DNA from: Limnohabitans sp. Rim8
GTDB taxonomy: Bacteria; Pseudomonadota; Gammaproteobacteria; Burkholderiales; Burkholderiaceae_C
DNA length: 64,000 nucleotides
Reading direction: 5' to 3'
NCBI GenBank assembly: GCA_945897795.1
Contig: CAMDFT010000006.1
Coordinates: 1-64,000, forward strand
Shown here piece after piece: positions 1-6,918 of this stretch; the first letter of the stretch is position 1, and each line of letters begins with the position of its first letter. The translations under genes and the position numbers were made by a program. The notes under the pieces were generated by a model, which saw only the letters and a program-made list of their open reading frames with translations, did not search any database and had not been told where the DNA came from.

Positions 1-478
1 GCCAAATTGGATTGAGGATGCGCAAGATGTCTTCCATCGCAATTGTGTCGATCGGCATGTTACCTATCACCGGATTGGCAAAGCGCTCGATAGTGGATGT
101 CCATTGGGCAGCGTGCTTGGGATTGCGCCACTCCGGTCTCTTGGCTGCAATGCACTGCGCCGCGTAGTCTGCAAAAAACACCACTTGGGTGGTTTGTTCC
201 TGGACCTCACGCGATGTTCGCCACGCAGCTTTGGGCTCGACGCCTTTGTTGATCTGACAGCGCAGGTCAGTGGCACGAGCCCGGGCCTCCTTGAGCGTCA
301 CCGTGGGGTAGGCGCCCAGACTTATGTCCTGACGCTTGCCGCCACACACATAGCGCAACGCCCAGTACTTTCCCAGATTGGGCTTGACTTGAAGGTTCAG
401 ACCGGCCGTGGCGGCGTCCGTGTATCGGCCTGGGGTTGACAGGTTTTTGATGAAAGCATCGGTGAGCGTTGTAGGCAT
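1..478 (-). CDS. Phage/P4-type tyrosine integrase, N-terminal part (truncated by window edge)
   Basis: Minus-strand reading from ATG at 478: MPTTLTDAFIKNLSTPGRYTDAATAGLNLQVKPNLGKYWALRYVCGGKRQDISLGAYPTVTLKEARARATDLRCQINKGVEP..., the typical N-terminal Arm-DNA-binding domain (DUF4102) and start of the SAM-like domain; open at position 1. Confidence 0.9.
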   Translation of the reverse strand, partial: MPTTLTDAFIKNLSTPGRYTDAATAGLNLQVKPNLGKYWALRYVCGGKRQDISLGAYPTVTLKEARARATDLRCQINKGVEPKAAWRTSREVQEQTTQVVFFADYAAQCIAAKRPEWRNPKHAAQWTSTIERFANPVIGNMPIDTIAMEDILRILNPIW

Positions 479-751
479 GGCAGTCCTCGTCGAAATTCCC
501 CCACAGTTCCCCACACCAGAGGCGTGACTAGCCGTGAGAGGCGTTGGCAGGTACGGTAAAGCCCTGACCGCCAGCCGTCGAGCGACAGAGATACTTATTG
601 CCGATTTTTCGGGGTTGAGTCGATGCAGGCGTGCCGCCCTGAACACTCAAGACCGCTCAAGACCTGCCAAGGCTTTACTTGCAGGCCAGTAGACTCCTCC
701 TCCGCCAGTACAAAGACCTCAAACCTGCTCAGCAGGCCTTGAGGCAGCCTC

Positions 752-850
752 AGGCCCCGCACCACGCGGGGCTTTTTGCTTTGGGCTCCTGACTGCGGCC
801 TGCGGCGTTGACCCGGCAAAGTCGTCTCAAACCCCGTTTGTCTCAAAACC
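752..850. repeat. Imperfect direct repeat copy 1, includes a GC-rich hairpin (ggccccgcaccacgcggggctttttgc)
   Basis: Matches 1801-1899: aggccccgcaccacgcggggctttttgctt ... gtcgtctcaaaccccgt..gtctca. Confidence 0.8.
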
Positions 851-1147
851 TTATGACTTTTTCGGACTTGGTTCCAAGCCGTGAATTTGCGGGTGAAGGC
901 AAAACGGGCTTTGAACCAAGTCGAATGAAATTTCGTTGCTCAGAGTGCTTTGATGTCAAGTTGAAGATGAACAATTTGCGACCTTATGCCCTTCGCTCAA
1001 CGCAACACTTGAAAGCTGACGATAGACTGCTTGAGACCCTTAACCGTCACTCGGAAAATCCGACTGCATCTAAGAAAAAAGTGAAATGCAGTCATTAGAA
1101 ATCACCGATAACAGAGGCTGACGTCCTGAAAGCAGCGCGCTTGCAAT

Positions 1148-1168
1148 GTGTAAAGAAATTCTTTACAC
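1148..1168. promoter_or_regulatory. Perfect palindrome gtgtaaagaa-a-ttctttacac, probable HigA operator
   Basis: 10-bp arms with 1-nt spacer, ending 8 nt before the likely higB ATG at 1177. Confidence 0.7.
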
Positions 1169-1176
1169 TTCAATTT

Positions 1177-1452
1177 ATGATTGACTCGTTCAAGCACAAA
1201 GGACTTCAGGAGCTTTTTGAGAACGGCACCAGCTCTAAGTTGCAAAAGGCTCTGGCTGAGCGGGCGCTTCGCCGACTCGATGCCATTGACGTTGCCAAGA
1301 CGCCAGAGGCTTTAAATGTTCCTGGTTTTAATTTTCATGGACTTCAGAGCAAGCCAAAGCGCTACAGCGTGCATGTCAATGGGCCGTGGTGCATCACCTT
1401 TGAGTGGCAGGGTGAAAACGCAGTCAAGATTGATTTTGAGAATTACCACTAG
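1177..1452 (+). CDS. higB: HigB-type RelE/ParE family toxin
   Basis: MIDSFKHKGLQELFENGTSSKLQKALAERALRRLDAIDVAKTPEALNVPGFNFHGLQSKPKRYSVHVNGPWCITFEW...; followed 6 nt later by the higA ORF. Confidence 0.93.
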   Translation: MIDSFKHKGLQELFENGTSSKLQKALAERALRRLDAIDVAKTPEALNVPGFNFHGLQSKPKRYSVHVNGPWCITFEWQGENAVKIDFENYH

Positions 1453-1458
1453 GAGTGA

Positions 1459-1767
1459 ATGATGCGTAAACGTGTACCGACCCATCCCGGAGCCATCCTT
1501 CGGGAAGATGTGTTGCCCAGCTTGCCGGGTATGTCCGTTAGCGCCTTCGCCCGAAACTTGGGCGTTTCCCGCCAGACCTTGCACGCGGTGCTAGCCGAAC
1601 GTAGCGGCGTGTCGGCCGAGATGGCGCTGCGTCTGGGAACGCTGCTTGGTAATGGCGCGCAACTCTGGCTGGACTTGCAGACCAAGTTTGATCTGTGGCA
1701 AGCGGAGGCCAAGTTGCACGATGAACTGGGTCAGATGAAACGACTTGAGTCCTTGGCAATGGCTTGA
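1459..1767 (+). CDS. higA: HigA-type antitoxin, XRE HTH
   Basis: RKRVPTHPGAILREDVLPSLPGMSVSAFARNLGVSRQTLHAVLAERSGVSAEMALRLGTLLGNGAQLWLDLQTKFDLWQA, classic HigA signature. Confidence 0.94.
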   Translation: MMRKRVPTHPGAILREDVLPSLPGMSVSAFARNLGVSRQTLHAVLAERSGVSAEMALRLGTLLGNGAQLWLDLQTKFDLWQAEAKLHDELGQMKRLESLAMA

Positions 1768-1800
1768 TTTATCAAGGCAACCCGAAAGACTTTTTGCATG

Positions 1801-1899
1801 AGGCCCCGCACCACGCGGGGCTTTTTGCTTCTGTGCCCTGACTGCGCCCTTTGGCAGCGACCCGTAAAAGTCGTCTCAAACCCCGTGGGTCTCACAACG
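1801..1899. repeat. Imperfect direct repeat copy 2 with terminator-like hairpin downstream of higA
   Basis: GCCCCGC-accac-GCGGGGC followed by TTTTTG; matches 752-850. Confidence 0.8.
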
Positions 1900-1913
1900 T
1901 GACTTGTTTCAAG

Positions 1914-2336
1914 TTACGCATCCATCATGGTGATTGGGCTGCTTGATTTGATGAGTACATCCAGCAATGACATGGCGTCCTCTGCTGAGGCTGAGTAAGG
2001 ATCAAATTCTGGATGCGCCATCTTGACCATCGGATCATCTTTGTCCAGATGAACAAGTGCCATGGACCACTGCTCAAATTGTCGATGCTTAATTTCTTTC
2101 ATCGACAATAATTCCAGATTATGGTGCTGGCGGTCCCCCATGATCCGAGAGTAAAGACGGTTGACTTGACTTCTTTCACCCTCTAATGCCTGCAGCCATA
2201 AGCCTGCGCCTTGACACAAAATGCCGGTGATATTTGCCTTTTTGTTGTTGGTCTGGGATTTCACCAAGATCGATGTCGTGACCGTCGTAGTGATCGGTCC
2301 GACAGGCTGGCTGACATATAAAAGGCGTACCAACAT
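1914..2336 (-). CDS. BLUF-domain (blue light using FAD) photoreceptor
   Basis: MLVRLLYVSQ...SQTNNKKANITGILCQGAGLWLQALEGERSQVNRLYSRIMGDRQHHNLELLSMKEIKHRQFEQWSM; the Tyr, Asn, Gln and WSM positions of BLUF domains are present. Confidence 0.92.
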   Translation of the reverse strand: MLVRLLYVSQPVGPITTTVTTSILVKSQTNNKKANITGILCQGAGLWLQALEGERSQVNRLYSRIMGDRQHHNLELLSMKEIKHRQFEQWSMALVHLDKDDPMVKMAHPEFDPYSASAEDAMSLLDVLIKSSSPITMMDA

Positions 2337-2574
2337 GTGTGATTTCTTTCATGGTTTGGGAAAGCAATCTGCGGCGGTCTTTTTGATGATTGGCTGTCCC
2401 CAAATCCATCTTACTTGAACTGCTTGGATGCAAAGGCACAACGCCACTAGGCGGCATGCACTTGATGCATTTGACAAGCCATGAGCGGTCACCGACAAGC
2501 TTGAGCGGGGCTGATGCTTGTCTCAGTGGCGCCATGCTCCCTTTGGGACTTGCAGACCCAGCAGTTGAATCCCA

Positions 2575-3756
2575 TCAGGCGAGAACGGGCAGACCCGTGA
2601 AGTTGTGCGCGAACACTGCACGCCCTTCCCGAGTACCGGTCATGTAATTCAAATCTGCCAGTTGCATTCGGCGATCGAACGCGCTTTGCCCCGGAAATTG
2701 GTGGACCATCGTGCACAGGCCCGCCGAGAACCGCTGGACCAACCACATGCGTTCAAGGCAAGTGTCGGCGTAGCCGTCTAGCCAGCGTGGATCATGGCGT
2801 TTGTAGTGTTCCACCAGCGCGCGGCCAAGCACCTTGATGTCCGCCATCGCAGCATTCAAGCCCTTGGCCCCTGTGGGGGGAACGATGTGGGCGGCATCGC
2901 CAGCGAGGAACAGGCGGCCAAAGCGCATGGGTTCACAGATGAAGCTGCGCATGGCCGTGATGGCTTTTTGCGTGATGCGACCTTCATTGATGGGGGGCTG
3001 CCCATCGACATCGAGACGCTTGTGCAATGCTGCCCAGATGCGATCGTCGGACCAGTTGTCGGGGCTGTCGTCAGGGTCGCACTGCAAATACAAGCGGGTG
3101 ACCTCGGGCGAGCGGATGCTCATCATGGCGAAACCATCGGGATGGCAACCCCAAGTGATGTCTTGGATGGCCGGTGGTGCGTCAGCCAAAATGCCCAGCC
3201 ATCCAAAGGGGTAAACACGGTCATAAAGCCGCAGCTTGTCGTGAGGGATGGCGCTGCGGCTGATGCCCCTAAAGCCGTCACAGCCCGCCACGAAATCGCA
3301 TGACAATTCGAGTGGTTGGCCTTCGGACTCGAAATGGATGATGGGTCGGCTGTCTTTCAGGCCTTCGATGTGCGTCACGGGCGCGTCATAAAAAATCTGG
3401 GCACCTGCCTCCTCGCGAGCTTGCATCAGATCGGCCACCACCTCGTGCTGCGGATAGACCCAGGCGCTCCGCCCGCCCGATGCCTCGTGGAAGTCCAGCC
3501 TGTGAGAGCGGTTGTTAAAGCGAAAATCCAGCGCGTGTTGTTCAAGCGCCAGTCGGTCCATGCGTTCACCCAGGCCGACCTCGCGCATCATCTCCACAGT
3601 CCCCTGCTCGAGCACCCCGGCGCGAAGACGGGAGCGCACATGGTCTTTTTGCGATCGTTCAATGATGACCGACTCGATGCCCTCCAGGTGCAGCAGGTGA
3701 GAAAGCATCAAGCCCGCGGGGCCCGCGCCAATGATGCCAACTTGTGTCCGTATCAC
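2575..3756 (-). CDS. pobA: 4-hydroxybenzoate 3-monooxygenase
   Basis: [29 protein letters not shown]...[22 protein letters not shown]...[32 protein letters not shown]. Confidence 0.95.
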
Positions 3757-4135
3757 GGGCAGTCCTCCAAGGTGAACATCCCCATTTCGGTCGTCATTGG
3801 CGCGTGGTCAGGGCGATGAATTTTTTGTGAGTTGTGAGCGACAATGCGTGCCATCAGACGTTCTCCAGGACCTTGCGGTTTGCCAACAACTCTTCGTGGG
3901 TTTCGCTGAGCATCTCGGGTTCAGGGGGTGTTTGGTTGGCGTCGGTCATGGTCTGAATGGTCTGAGTATAGAAGTGGGGTCAATGCTTGAAAAATACACG
4001 TATTCTGTTGCCTGCTGCAAAGACCCTGCGTCAAAGCAAGACTTGACTGTCTATCGCATCCCCCTTGGCGGTTGATGAGCGCCTCAATGACCGACTGCGT
4101 GTTTTGCTGGCGCAAGCCACCTATTTGAATCTGAA

Positions 4136-4336
4136 ATGCAAAAAATGATGAGAACCTGTCTCCTGATCGTCGCCTTTTTGGCCATGCCTTTGCTGCAAGG
4201 CTGTACGGTGTTGGCCATAGCGGATGTGGCCGCGTCTACCGTGATTTATGGGGTCAAGACGGCCGTCAACGTGGTCGATGCCGTCACACCCGACATCATC
4301 AACCGGGACAAAGACAAAAACAAAAAGAAGGATTGA
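4136..4336 (+). CDS. Small predicted lipoprotein
   Basis: Signal peptide with lipobox: RTCLLIVAFLAMPLLQGCTVLAIADVAASTVIYGVKTAVNVVDAV. Confidence 0.75.
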   Translation: MQKMMRTCLLIVAFLAMPLLQGCTVLAIADVAASTVIYGVKTAVNVVDAVTPDIINRDKDKNKKKD

Positions 4337-4344
4337 GTGTGGGC

Positions 4345-4902
4345 TCAGCCCTGGCGGTGCTCGGCCAGGTCGTTCCAGACATCCTGGCGAGTGATCAGGC
4401 CATCGCGCACTTCCAGCCGGTCAATGAAGCGGATGCCTTCAAAAGGCTCACCCTGGAGCCAGGTGCCCTGCAAGGTGCCATGGCAAAACACCACGGTGAC
4501 ATCGCCCTGCCAACTCTCTTCAAACTGCTCGTAGTGCTTGCTGATGGCGCTGTAACGCTGCTGCGCCCAGCCGATCAACTCGGACAGGCTTCGCATCTGC
4601 ACCCCGCCGGGGAAACACATGGCAAAGTCCGGGTGCAAAAAGCTTTGCGCCAAGGCCATGTCGCGTTCTTGCATGGCTTGCAAAAAAGACTGCACCACGT
4701 CAGAGGCCACCGGGTGCGCGGCTCGGCCACCGCTGAACACCTTGCCGTCACGCCGGTAGGTGCTGACCTCGTTGACAAAGACCGTGGTGCCCGCCTCCGG
4801 TGTGTCGATCACGGACCGCACGGCCTGGGCCACTCGGTTGACCATGCGGTGCTGTGTGTCCGGTGCATAGCCCGGCAGCAAGGTGATCGAGACGACAGGC
4901 AT
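4345..4902 (-). CDS. Tautomerase-like (4-OT) N-terminal domain fused to SnoaL/NTF2-like domain
   Basis: MPVVSITLLPGYAPDTQHRMVNRVAQAVRSVIDTPEAGTTVFVNEV (tautomerase-like, Pro after Met) followed by SFLQAMQERDMALAQSFLHPDFAMCFPGG... (SnoaL-like). Confidence 0.8.
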   Translation of the reverse strand: MPVVSITLLPGYAPDTQHRMVNRVAQAVRSVIDTPEAGTTVFVNEVSTYRRDGKVFSGGRAAHPVASDVVQSFLQAMQERDMALAQSFLHPDFAMCFPGGVQMRSLSELIGWAQQRYSAISKHYEQFEESWQGDVTVVFCHGTLQGTWLQGEPFEGIRFIDRLEVRDGLITRQDVWNDLAEHRQG

Positions 4903-4911
4903 GGGTACGAA

Positions 4912-5517
4912 TCAGATTCCCAGCCAGCCGTTGGTGCGGGCAAAGTGCAGCGCTTGGGTGCGGCTGTTGACGCCCAAGCGGCGGAACAAGCGCCAGAAAT
5001 GCACCTTGACGGTGTGCTCACTGATTTCCAGTTTTTCGGCGATGTCGCGGTTGGACAGGCCTTGGTCCAGCATCAGGATCAGTTGCTTTTGGCGTTTGGA
5101 CAGTTTGGTCGGGCCCGCTGGCGTTGCCGCGTCTTCAATCGCCGCTTGCTCCTCGGTCACCAAAAGGCTGCGCAAGGCGGCAATGATCTGGGCGGGGCTG
5201 TCGGATTTTTCGATGAAGGCATCGGCGCCCGCCTCGAGGCAACGCGCTTCGTATTCGCTGGCGCTGGAGCTGGTCACGACCGCTAAAGGGATGTTGGGAA
5301 ACTTGGCTTTGAGCACCTGTACCCCGGACATGCCCAGGGTATCGGGCAGTTGAAGGTCAAGGCAAAACAGCTCTGGGGTACCGTTTTTTTCAACGGTAGA
5401 TTCCACGACATTCAGCTTGTGAATCGGGATGATCTTCAGGCCTGGTTTGACCCGGTGCAGCAACATGGTCAGTGCGTCACGCATCAAGGGGTGGTCATCA
5501 ATGACATAAACAGTCAT
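4912..5517 (-). CDS. NarL/FixJ (LuxR) family response regulator
   Basis: Receiver domain MTVYVIDDHPLMRDAL...FCLDLQLPD and LuxR HTH LSKRQKQLILMLDQGLSNRDIAEKLEISEHTVKVH. Confidence 0.93.
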   Translation of the reverse strand: MTVYVIDDHPLMRDALTMLLHRVKPGLKIIPIHKLNVVESTVEKNGTPELFCLDLQLPDTLGMSGVQVLKAKFPNIPLAVVTSSSASEYEARCLEAGADAFIEKSDSPAQIIAALRSLLVTEEQAAIEDAATPAGPTKLSKRQKQLILMLDQGLSNRDIAEKLEISEHTVKVHFWRLFRRLGVNSRTQALHFARTNGWLGI

Positions 5518-5601
5518 GTTTTAATCTCCGCGCTAATCTGAAAGTACAAGGATATCAGTTTAGAGATATTTTTGCTATCTTTTTTATTGAAAACAACAAA
5601 A

Positions 5602-6918
5602 TCATTTTTGGTTGGCATCGGTGTGGGCTTTCAACAACACCAAAATTTCGCTCAAAGAACCAGCAGTTTGGGGGGCGAATTCAAGAGTGGTCTTCAGCTC
5701 GGCCAGGGCGTCCGGTCCTTCTGATTGCAGCCGAGCGATGGTTTGCCCGGCTTCTTTGGGCGAGGCAAAGCCCAGGCTTTGCAACAAAATCTGGCCTTTG
5801 GAATCCACCAGCTTGAAATAAAACTGACCGTCTTTTTCGCGGTATTGCTTGAAGCTGGGCAGCGCGGTTTTGGCTTCTTTGGCCACCGGCGCAGCGCTGC
5901 CTAATGCCAAAGCGCGCAAGCCCACGGCATGGCGCAATTCGCGCATGAAAGGTGTGGCCAATTGGCGGGCTTTGTCGGCACCGGCCAGCAAAATTTTGTC
6001 CATCTGTGCGGGGTTGTCGATCAGGCTTTGGTAATGCTCGCGCATGGGCGCGATTTCGCGGTCGATGCGCTCGAACAGCATGTTCTTGGCATCACCCCAG
6101 CCGATGCCGTCGGCATAGGCGCGGGCCATGGCGGCGGTCTCGTTGGCGCTGGCAAAGGCCTGGTAAATCTGGAACAGCGCCGAGCCTTCGGTGGCCTTGG
6201 GCTCGCCGGGCGCTTTGGAATCGGTGACGATGCCGGCGATTTGCTTGCGCATTTGCGCGGCGGGTGCAAACAGCGGGATGGTGTTGTCGTAGCTCTTGCT
6301 CATTTTGCGGCCGTCCAGCCCCGGCAGCAGGGCCACCGATTCTTCGATCACGGCCTCCGGCAGCACGAAGTGCTCGCCATACAAATGGTTGAAGCTGGAC
6401 GCCATGTCGCGCGCCATCTCGATGTGCTGGATCTGGTCTCGGCCCACGGGCACTTTGTGCGCCTTGAACATCAAGATGTCAGCGCCCATGAGCACCGGGT
6501 ACATGAACAGGCCTGCGCTCACGTCGCTGTCGGGGTCGTGTCCTGCGGCGTTGTTTTTATCTACCGATGCTTTGTAGGCATGGGCACGGTTGAGCACGCC
6601 CTTGCCGGTCACGCAGGTCAGCAGCCAAGTGAGTTCGGGGATTTCAGGAATGTCGGACTGGCGGTAGAAGGTGACTTTGTCCGGGTCCAGGCCCGAGGCG
6701 ATCCAGCTGGCGGCGATCTCGAGTGTGGAGCGCTGGATGCGGCCGGGTTCGTCGCACTTGATGAGGGCGTGGTAGTCGGCCAAAAAGTAAAAACCATCGG
6801 TGCTCAGGTCGCGGCTGGCTTGCACGGTGGGGCGGATCGCGCCCACGTAGTTACCTAGGTGGGGGGTGCCGGTGGTGGTGATGCCGGTGAGAACGCGGGT
6901 GCGGGATGGGGAGGTCAT
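5602..6918 (-). CDS. trpS: Tryptophan--tRNA ligase with C-terminal extension
   Basis: RVLTGITTTGTPHLGNYVGAIRP...GRKMSKSYDNTIPLF (KMSKS motif). Confidence 0.95.
   Translation of the reverse strand: MTSPSRTRVLTGITTTGTPHLGNYVGAIRPTVQASRDLSTDGFYFLADYHALIKCDEPGRIQRSTLEIAASWIASGLDPDKVTFYRQSDIPEIPELTWLLTCVTGKGVLNRAHAYKASVDKNNAAGHDPDSDVSAGLFMYPVLMGADILMFKAHKVPVGRDQIQHIEMARDMASSFNHLYGEHFVLPEAVIEESVALLPGLDGRKMSKSYDNTIPLFAPAAQMRKQIAGIVTDSKAPGEPKATEGSALFQIYQAFASANETAAMARAYADGIGWGDAKNMLFERIDREIAPMREHYQSLIDNPAQMDKILLAGADKARQLATPFMRELRHAVGLRALALGSAAPVAKEAKTALPSFKQYREKDGQFYFKLVDSKGQILLQSLGFASPKEAGQTIARLQSEGPDALAELKTTLEFAPQTAGSLSEILVLLKAHTDANQK

Follow-up and report, generated by a model that had tools for sequence, protein, structure and literature searches.

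The window, by which we mean the whole 64,000-nucleotide stretch of Limnohabitans sp. Rim8 DNA under analysis, opens at the very start of contig C6, to the left of which the assembly (G000) holds nothing further. At this end, a tyrosine integrase gene cut by the contig start is followed by a short piece of tRNA 3' end, by a toxin-antitoxin pair lying between two imperfect direct repeats, and by a BLUF gene and pobA (Table 1). The HigB-like toxin gene stands directly before the HigA antitoxin gene, and on the strength of gene order, protein families and PDB relatives the pair can be assigned to the HigBA type II toxin-antitoxin systems. No intact tRNA was found within the window, and a search of positions 1-6000 returned no known RNA family at E up to 1.

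Table 1. Features at the left end of the window, in window coordinates
Feature	Position	Strand	Remarks
Tyrosine integrase, N-terminal part, cut by contig start	2..478	-	Arm-DNA-bind_3, Phage_int_M
tRNA-Ser(CGA) 3' end ctcctcctccgccag	694..708	+	Putative attR, marking where an island ends on the right, and core of the end that follows
Type A left end of tRNA-Ser island	702..944	+	Core, hairpin, GTCTCAAA direct repeats, inverted repeat
Terminator-like hairpin, left copy	752..774	+	
Inverted repeat GACTTGGTTCCAAGCC / GGCTTTGAACCAAGTC	865-922		Inside type A end
higBA module	1044..1795	+	Block recurs, similarly bordered, at unrelated sites (L086-L088)
21-bp palindrome GTGTAAAGAAATTCTTTACAC	1148..1168	.	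Also kept ahead of higB in close relatives; probably the operator for HigA
higB, gene for a RelE-like toxin of 91 aa	1177..1452	+	PF05015, 1.8e-15; PDB relatives 4mct, 4px8
higA, antitoxin gene, 102 aa	1459..1767	+	TIGR02607, 94.9 bits (cut-off 47.7)
Probable older, truncated type A end	1796..1898	+	Hairpin to GTCTCA; without tRNA end and CCGCCA core
Native chromosomal flank	1899..3756	-	BLUF gene 1914-2336, pobA 2575-3756

An earlier note on this DNA had described an imperfect direct repeat of ~100 bp that brackets higBA and adjoins an integrase, and both the repeat and the adjoining integrase fragment proved real. A repeat search pairs 747-849 with 1796-1898 at 83% identity over 103 nt, and blastn pairs 752-849 with 1801-1898 at 85.9% over 99 nt and 104 bits, compared with a maximum of 30.7 bits among 50 dinucleotide shuffles of positions 1-6000. 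The longest exact tract shared by the copies is 30 nt, and both contain, as had been claimed, the same terminator-like hairpin (1800-1824 in the right copy) and the motif GTCTCAAA...GTCTCA. The length given in the note fits the right copy, which is confined to about 1796-1898; the left copy is much longer, extending over 694-944, and is 93% identical to C36:9603-9853 in the same genome. Nor do the repeats enclose exactly higBA and its promoter, since the interval also holds ~100 bp of conserved non-coding island-end DNA that closes the left copy (850-944) and ~100 bp of other DNA. A common terminator scattered genome-wide, which the note had named as the finding that would undo its idea, is ruled out: the 3.26 Mb genome (164 contigs) has three copies (window 694-944, window 1801-1898 and C36:9603-9853), beside one extra 21-nt match on C35.

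The identity of the left copy becomes clear from contig C36, where an intact tRNA-Ser(CGA) gene (ARAGORN) is followed by the same 250 bp in alignment, and where the final bases of the tRNA, plus one base beyond, correspond to window 694-708. Among relatives, homology of the block starts at the CCGCCA core and extends to about 944. Despite being non-coding, the 702-944 block has long near-invariant stretches in an alignment of 11 usable copies (row L065 left out), and two GTCTCAAA repeats, the hairpin and the inverted repeat lie inside it. It recurs at 83-94% identity behind tRNA-Ser(CGA), tRNA-Ser(GCT) and other tRNA ends, and also behind integrase-type junctions (in the window and G046) and behind array right ends in G112, L091 and G124. 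Near-identical cargo (96-100%) follows the block at different tRNA-Ser genes, namely a cobalamin cluster in C36 and G053 (CGA) versus G123 (whose end matches the GCT type exactly), and a cluster resembling metal-efflux genes, found in G011, G017 and G018, with gene identities taken from ORFs; other copies are followed by unrelated cargo. Because the same cargo stands behind the block at different tRNA genes, 702-944 can be recognized, by sequence comparison, as the left end of a mobile island family, here called type A, that occupies tRNA-Ser 3' ends across species. Searches with 694-944 gave no plasmid or phage match in PLSDB and INPHARED, and matched two IMG/VR contigs, in which the block sits behind tRNA-Ser, beside defence genes. 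Separately, the cobalamin cluster of C36:867-9971 (L005) is 99.8% identical to that of G053:C14 (L048) over 9.1 kb, a stretch that ends just past tRNA-Ser and beyond which identity falls to 87%, the level of the flanks of the two species; this cluster appears to have been transferred recently between them.

The start codon of the integrase and the CCGCCA core of the tRNA-Ser end are separated by 223 bp. In most of its relatives within the genus, about 145-225 bp likewise separate the start codon from a tRNA-like 3' end (...TCCGCCA), so that the integrase stands beside a displaced tRNA 3' end in the window and in these relatives alike; the order integrase-CCGCCA-type A end is repeated in G046:C81. 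Also seen, at G101:C1, G007:C9, G014:C10 and G001:C4, were several tyrosine recombinases per genome that are short (190-240 aa) and in many cases lie close to one of 430-465 aa. The uninterrupted locus is preserved on a single contig of a relative (G014:C15) as serS-lipoprotein-tRNA-Ser(CGA)-hairpin-pobA. In G000 this locus is split, with the serS side and the intact tRNA on C36, the pobA side on C6, and the tRNA-targeting integrase at the break. C36 and C6 would thus flank one island cluster, a linkage drawn from synteny only, in a fragmented assembly of 164 contigs.

The right copy matches type A solely from the hairpin to GTCTCA, after which BLUF and pobA follow. This native flank is common to G023:C21 (90% over 5.9 kb) and G007, and in G023:C21 the same right copy is joined to the same native DNA, with the core and right end upstream retained. 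The right copy is therefore best described, from these alignments, as what is probably an older, truncated type A end fused to native BLUF-pobA DNA; its position would suit termination of higBA transcripts.

Taken together, these observations make it very probable that the region is the integration footprint of serially inserted and decayed tRNA-Ser islands, in which higBA remains between two type A ends. Of the possibilities raised by the earlier note, 'integration footprint' was the right one, the left copy being a tRNA-Ser 3' end plus an island-family left end beside a tRNA-targeting integrase. The best reading of the window region is that it represents the right side of a tandem island array in the tRNA-Ser(CGA) 3' end, a reading that draws together what is directly observed: the repeat, the tRNA end, the integrase, the uninterrupted site of a relative, ends with exchanged cargo, and the native right flank. 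In such a process, the tyrosine integrase would recombine the CCGCCA-containing att site of an island with the tRNA gene 3' end, and the incoming left end would supply a tRNA 3' end together with a terminator to replace the original one, as well as conserved DNA resembling integrase-binding sites, which presumably serves as arm sites for the integrase or Xis. The tRNA would thereby stay intact, the displaced tRNA end would mark the right junction, and repeated integration at displaced ends would line up islands end to end, separated by copies of a block of ~100-250 bp. At least two rounds of integration would have occurred in this genome, the last intact junction being 694-708. As for the order of insertion and decay, we infer that the element starting at 702-944 decayed to higBA alone, beside the older end at 1796-1898; the higBA element has no surviving right end at the locus, and its junctions at 944-1044 and 1795-1801 are known from this one assembly. 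Addiction may explain why higBA was retained. Parallels to serial insertion are found in G023:C21, with a 1.8-kb insert between two repeat copies, in G071:C2, with one hydrolase-like ORF between two copies, and in L091, G112 and G124, where a right end is joined to a type A end.

Other explanations of the repeat pair differ in how higBA arrived. That two hairpin-bearing copies flank higBA might suggest a local duplication of a terminator when the module was captured, akin to the earlier idea of a duplication that spread a terminator or recombination site. The left copy, though, is 97% identical to a G042 island end, and the right copy does not exceed 86% identity with any copy (84-86% to its nearest, the left copy included), which means that a single duplication did not give rise to the pair; each copy, moreover, has its own downstream flank, shared with other genomes. 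Copy identities and separately shared flanks contradict a local event, which we regard as highly improbable. The two type A ends might instead already have lain side by side when the module inserted between them non-homologously, in which case the repeats would be irrelevant to its arrival. The ~750-bp block (about 1044-1795) does recur at unrelated intergenic sites of Comamonadaceae/Burkholderiales MAGs, and in L086-L088 the same borders occur without type A ends. Against this, there is no transposase, and the borders of the module show no clear sign of terminal inverted repeats or of a duplicated target. Two of 19 close higBA relatives (L091, where higBA lies 3.3 kb from a right-end/type A junction, and L097) adjoin type A-like ends, which by an informal estimate looks above chance at one to three ends per genome. 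We consider such an insertion rather unlikely.

Serial insertion and decay must also be weighed against the possibility that higBA is itself a non-autonomous minimal island of ~1 kb, bounded by att-like sequences and mobilized in trans by a tRNA-Ser integrase, the right core having since been lost from the window. In its favour, higBA alone occupies, in L097, an 890-bp interval between two direct core-plus-terminator copies with a single difference in 70 positions, albeit on a short MAG contig ending 113 bp before the first copy. The single ORF of G071:C2, a second, 41% identical higBA inside a small G007:C17 array unit, and the similar 750-bp borders of higBA in unrelated places would agree with it, whereas the modules of L086-L088 lack these ends. 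In the window itself, the absence of the CCGCCA core from the right copy means that the pair is not usable as attL/attR, and this absence, together with the 86% identity, indicates that no single integration produced both copies. The 'mobile TA cassette' of the earlier note is thus weak at this locus, even if L097 suggests that a minimal higBA island may occur; for the window we think it somewhat doubtful.

These ends form part of a wider family. A 60-bp right end terminating in CCGCCA is followed directly by a second kind of left end (type B) in same-strand arrays, including a two-junction array behind tRNA-Ser(GCT) in G001 and about eight units within 30 kb in G007:C17; the right-end pattern gave no match in IMG/VR. 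The type B ends lead into a 110-aa HTH_17-like ORF (Pfam matches below cut-off) that we would guess to be Xis-like, and no PF00589 match was seen within the array units of G001 and G007. The G007:C17 units (20000-56405; L233/L234) run head to tail, most starting at CCGCCA, and carry, among other genes, a PIN-domain (VapC-like) gene, the second higBA, a MocR-like regulator and single hydrolases. Type A cargo comprises defence or restriction-modification genes in about 9 of ~17 independent loci, both viral-collection contigs included, in a sample without a control. Such genes were seen close behind type A ends at tRNA-Ser in L045 (G023:C31), L309 (G041:C7) and L311 (G124:C46), and in the same placement in L248 (G176:C2), L247 (G149:C16), L320 and L321; across the seven loci they include DISARM drmABC, an MTase plus Vsr, a BrxH/HmaA-like helicase, DrmMI/IIG and a PLD helicase. 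Tentatively, the window may be one stop of an integron-like, tRNA-anchored system of Burkholderiales, in which integrase-less and often small units with standard ends (type A, or type B plus the 110-aa HTH/Xis-like gene) would gather head to tail behind tRNA-Ser and be moved in trans, frequently with toxin-antitoxin or anti-phage cargo. Serial island insertion would explain the puzzling repeat around a toxin-antitoxin pair, and the 702-944 block offers a sequence handle for finding this island family across genera and families of the order, for locating defence cargo (DISARM genes, BREX/Hma-like helicases, restriction-modification), and for testing the movement of integrase-less array units.

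Among known systems, integron cassettes are similar in being small units, some with toxin-antitoxin genes, arranged head to tail between recombination sites. The sites of the window family differ in being tRNA-Ser ends (CCGCCA) with long ends; junctions show tRNA-Ser cores, and an unsystematic look at the sequences read noticed no attC-like core or integron integrase. The ICE SXT also carries a toxin-antitoxin pair inside an integrated element, reported to promote its maintenance (PMC2654960), but it is a different pair in a live ICE, while the HigBA of the window lies in a unit that has probably decayed. In Dehalococcoides, many islands stand in tandem behind the single ssrA gene, with direct repeats of the ssrA 3' end as their limits, and some are without an integration module (PMC3146451). 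These features are shared with the islands described here, which differ in that a tyrosine integrase adjoins rather than a serine recombinase module, the target is tRNA-Ser, and the conserved end of ~250 bp brings a replacement terminator. Also close is the tandem accretion of ICEs, IMEs and CIMEs at one att site (Pavlovic 2004, reviewed in PMC5704250). There, too, elements integrate site-specifically, one after another, at a gene end that has been displaced; direct repeats lie between the units, and decay leaves elements without integration genes. Like a CIME, 702-1898 holds only higBA, with no integration or transfer genes; unlike one with intact attL and attR, this unit no longer has an att core on its right, the right copy being without CCGCCA and the tRNA end. 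By analogy with these accounts (PMC5704250; PMC3146451), the window locus would work in the manner of tandem accretion, an already known kind of island growth.
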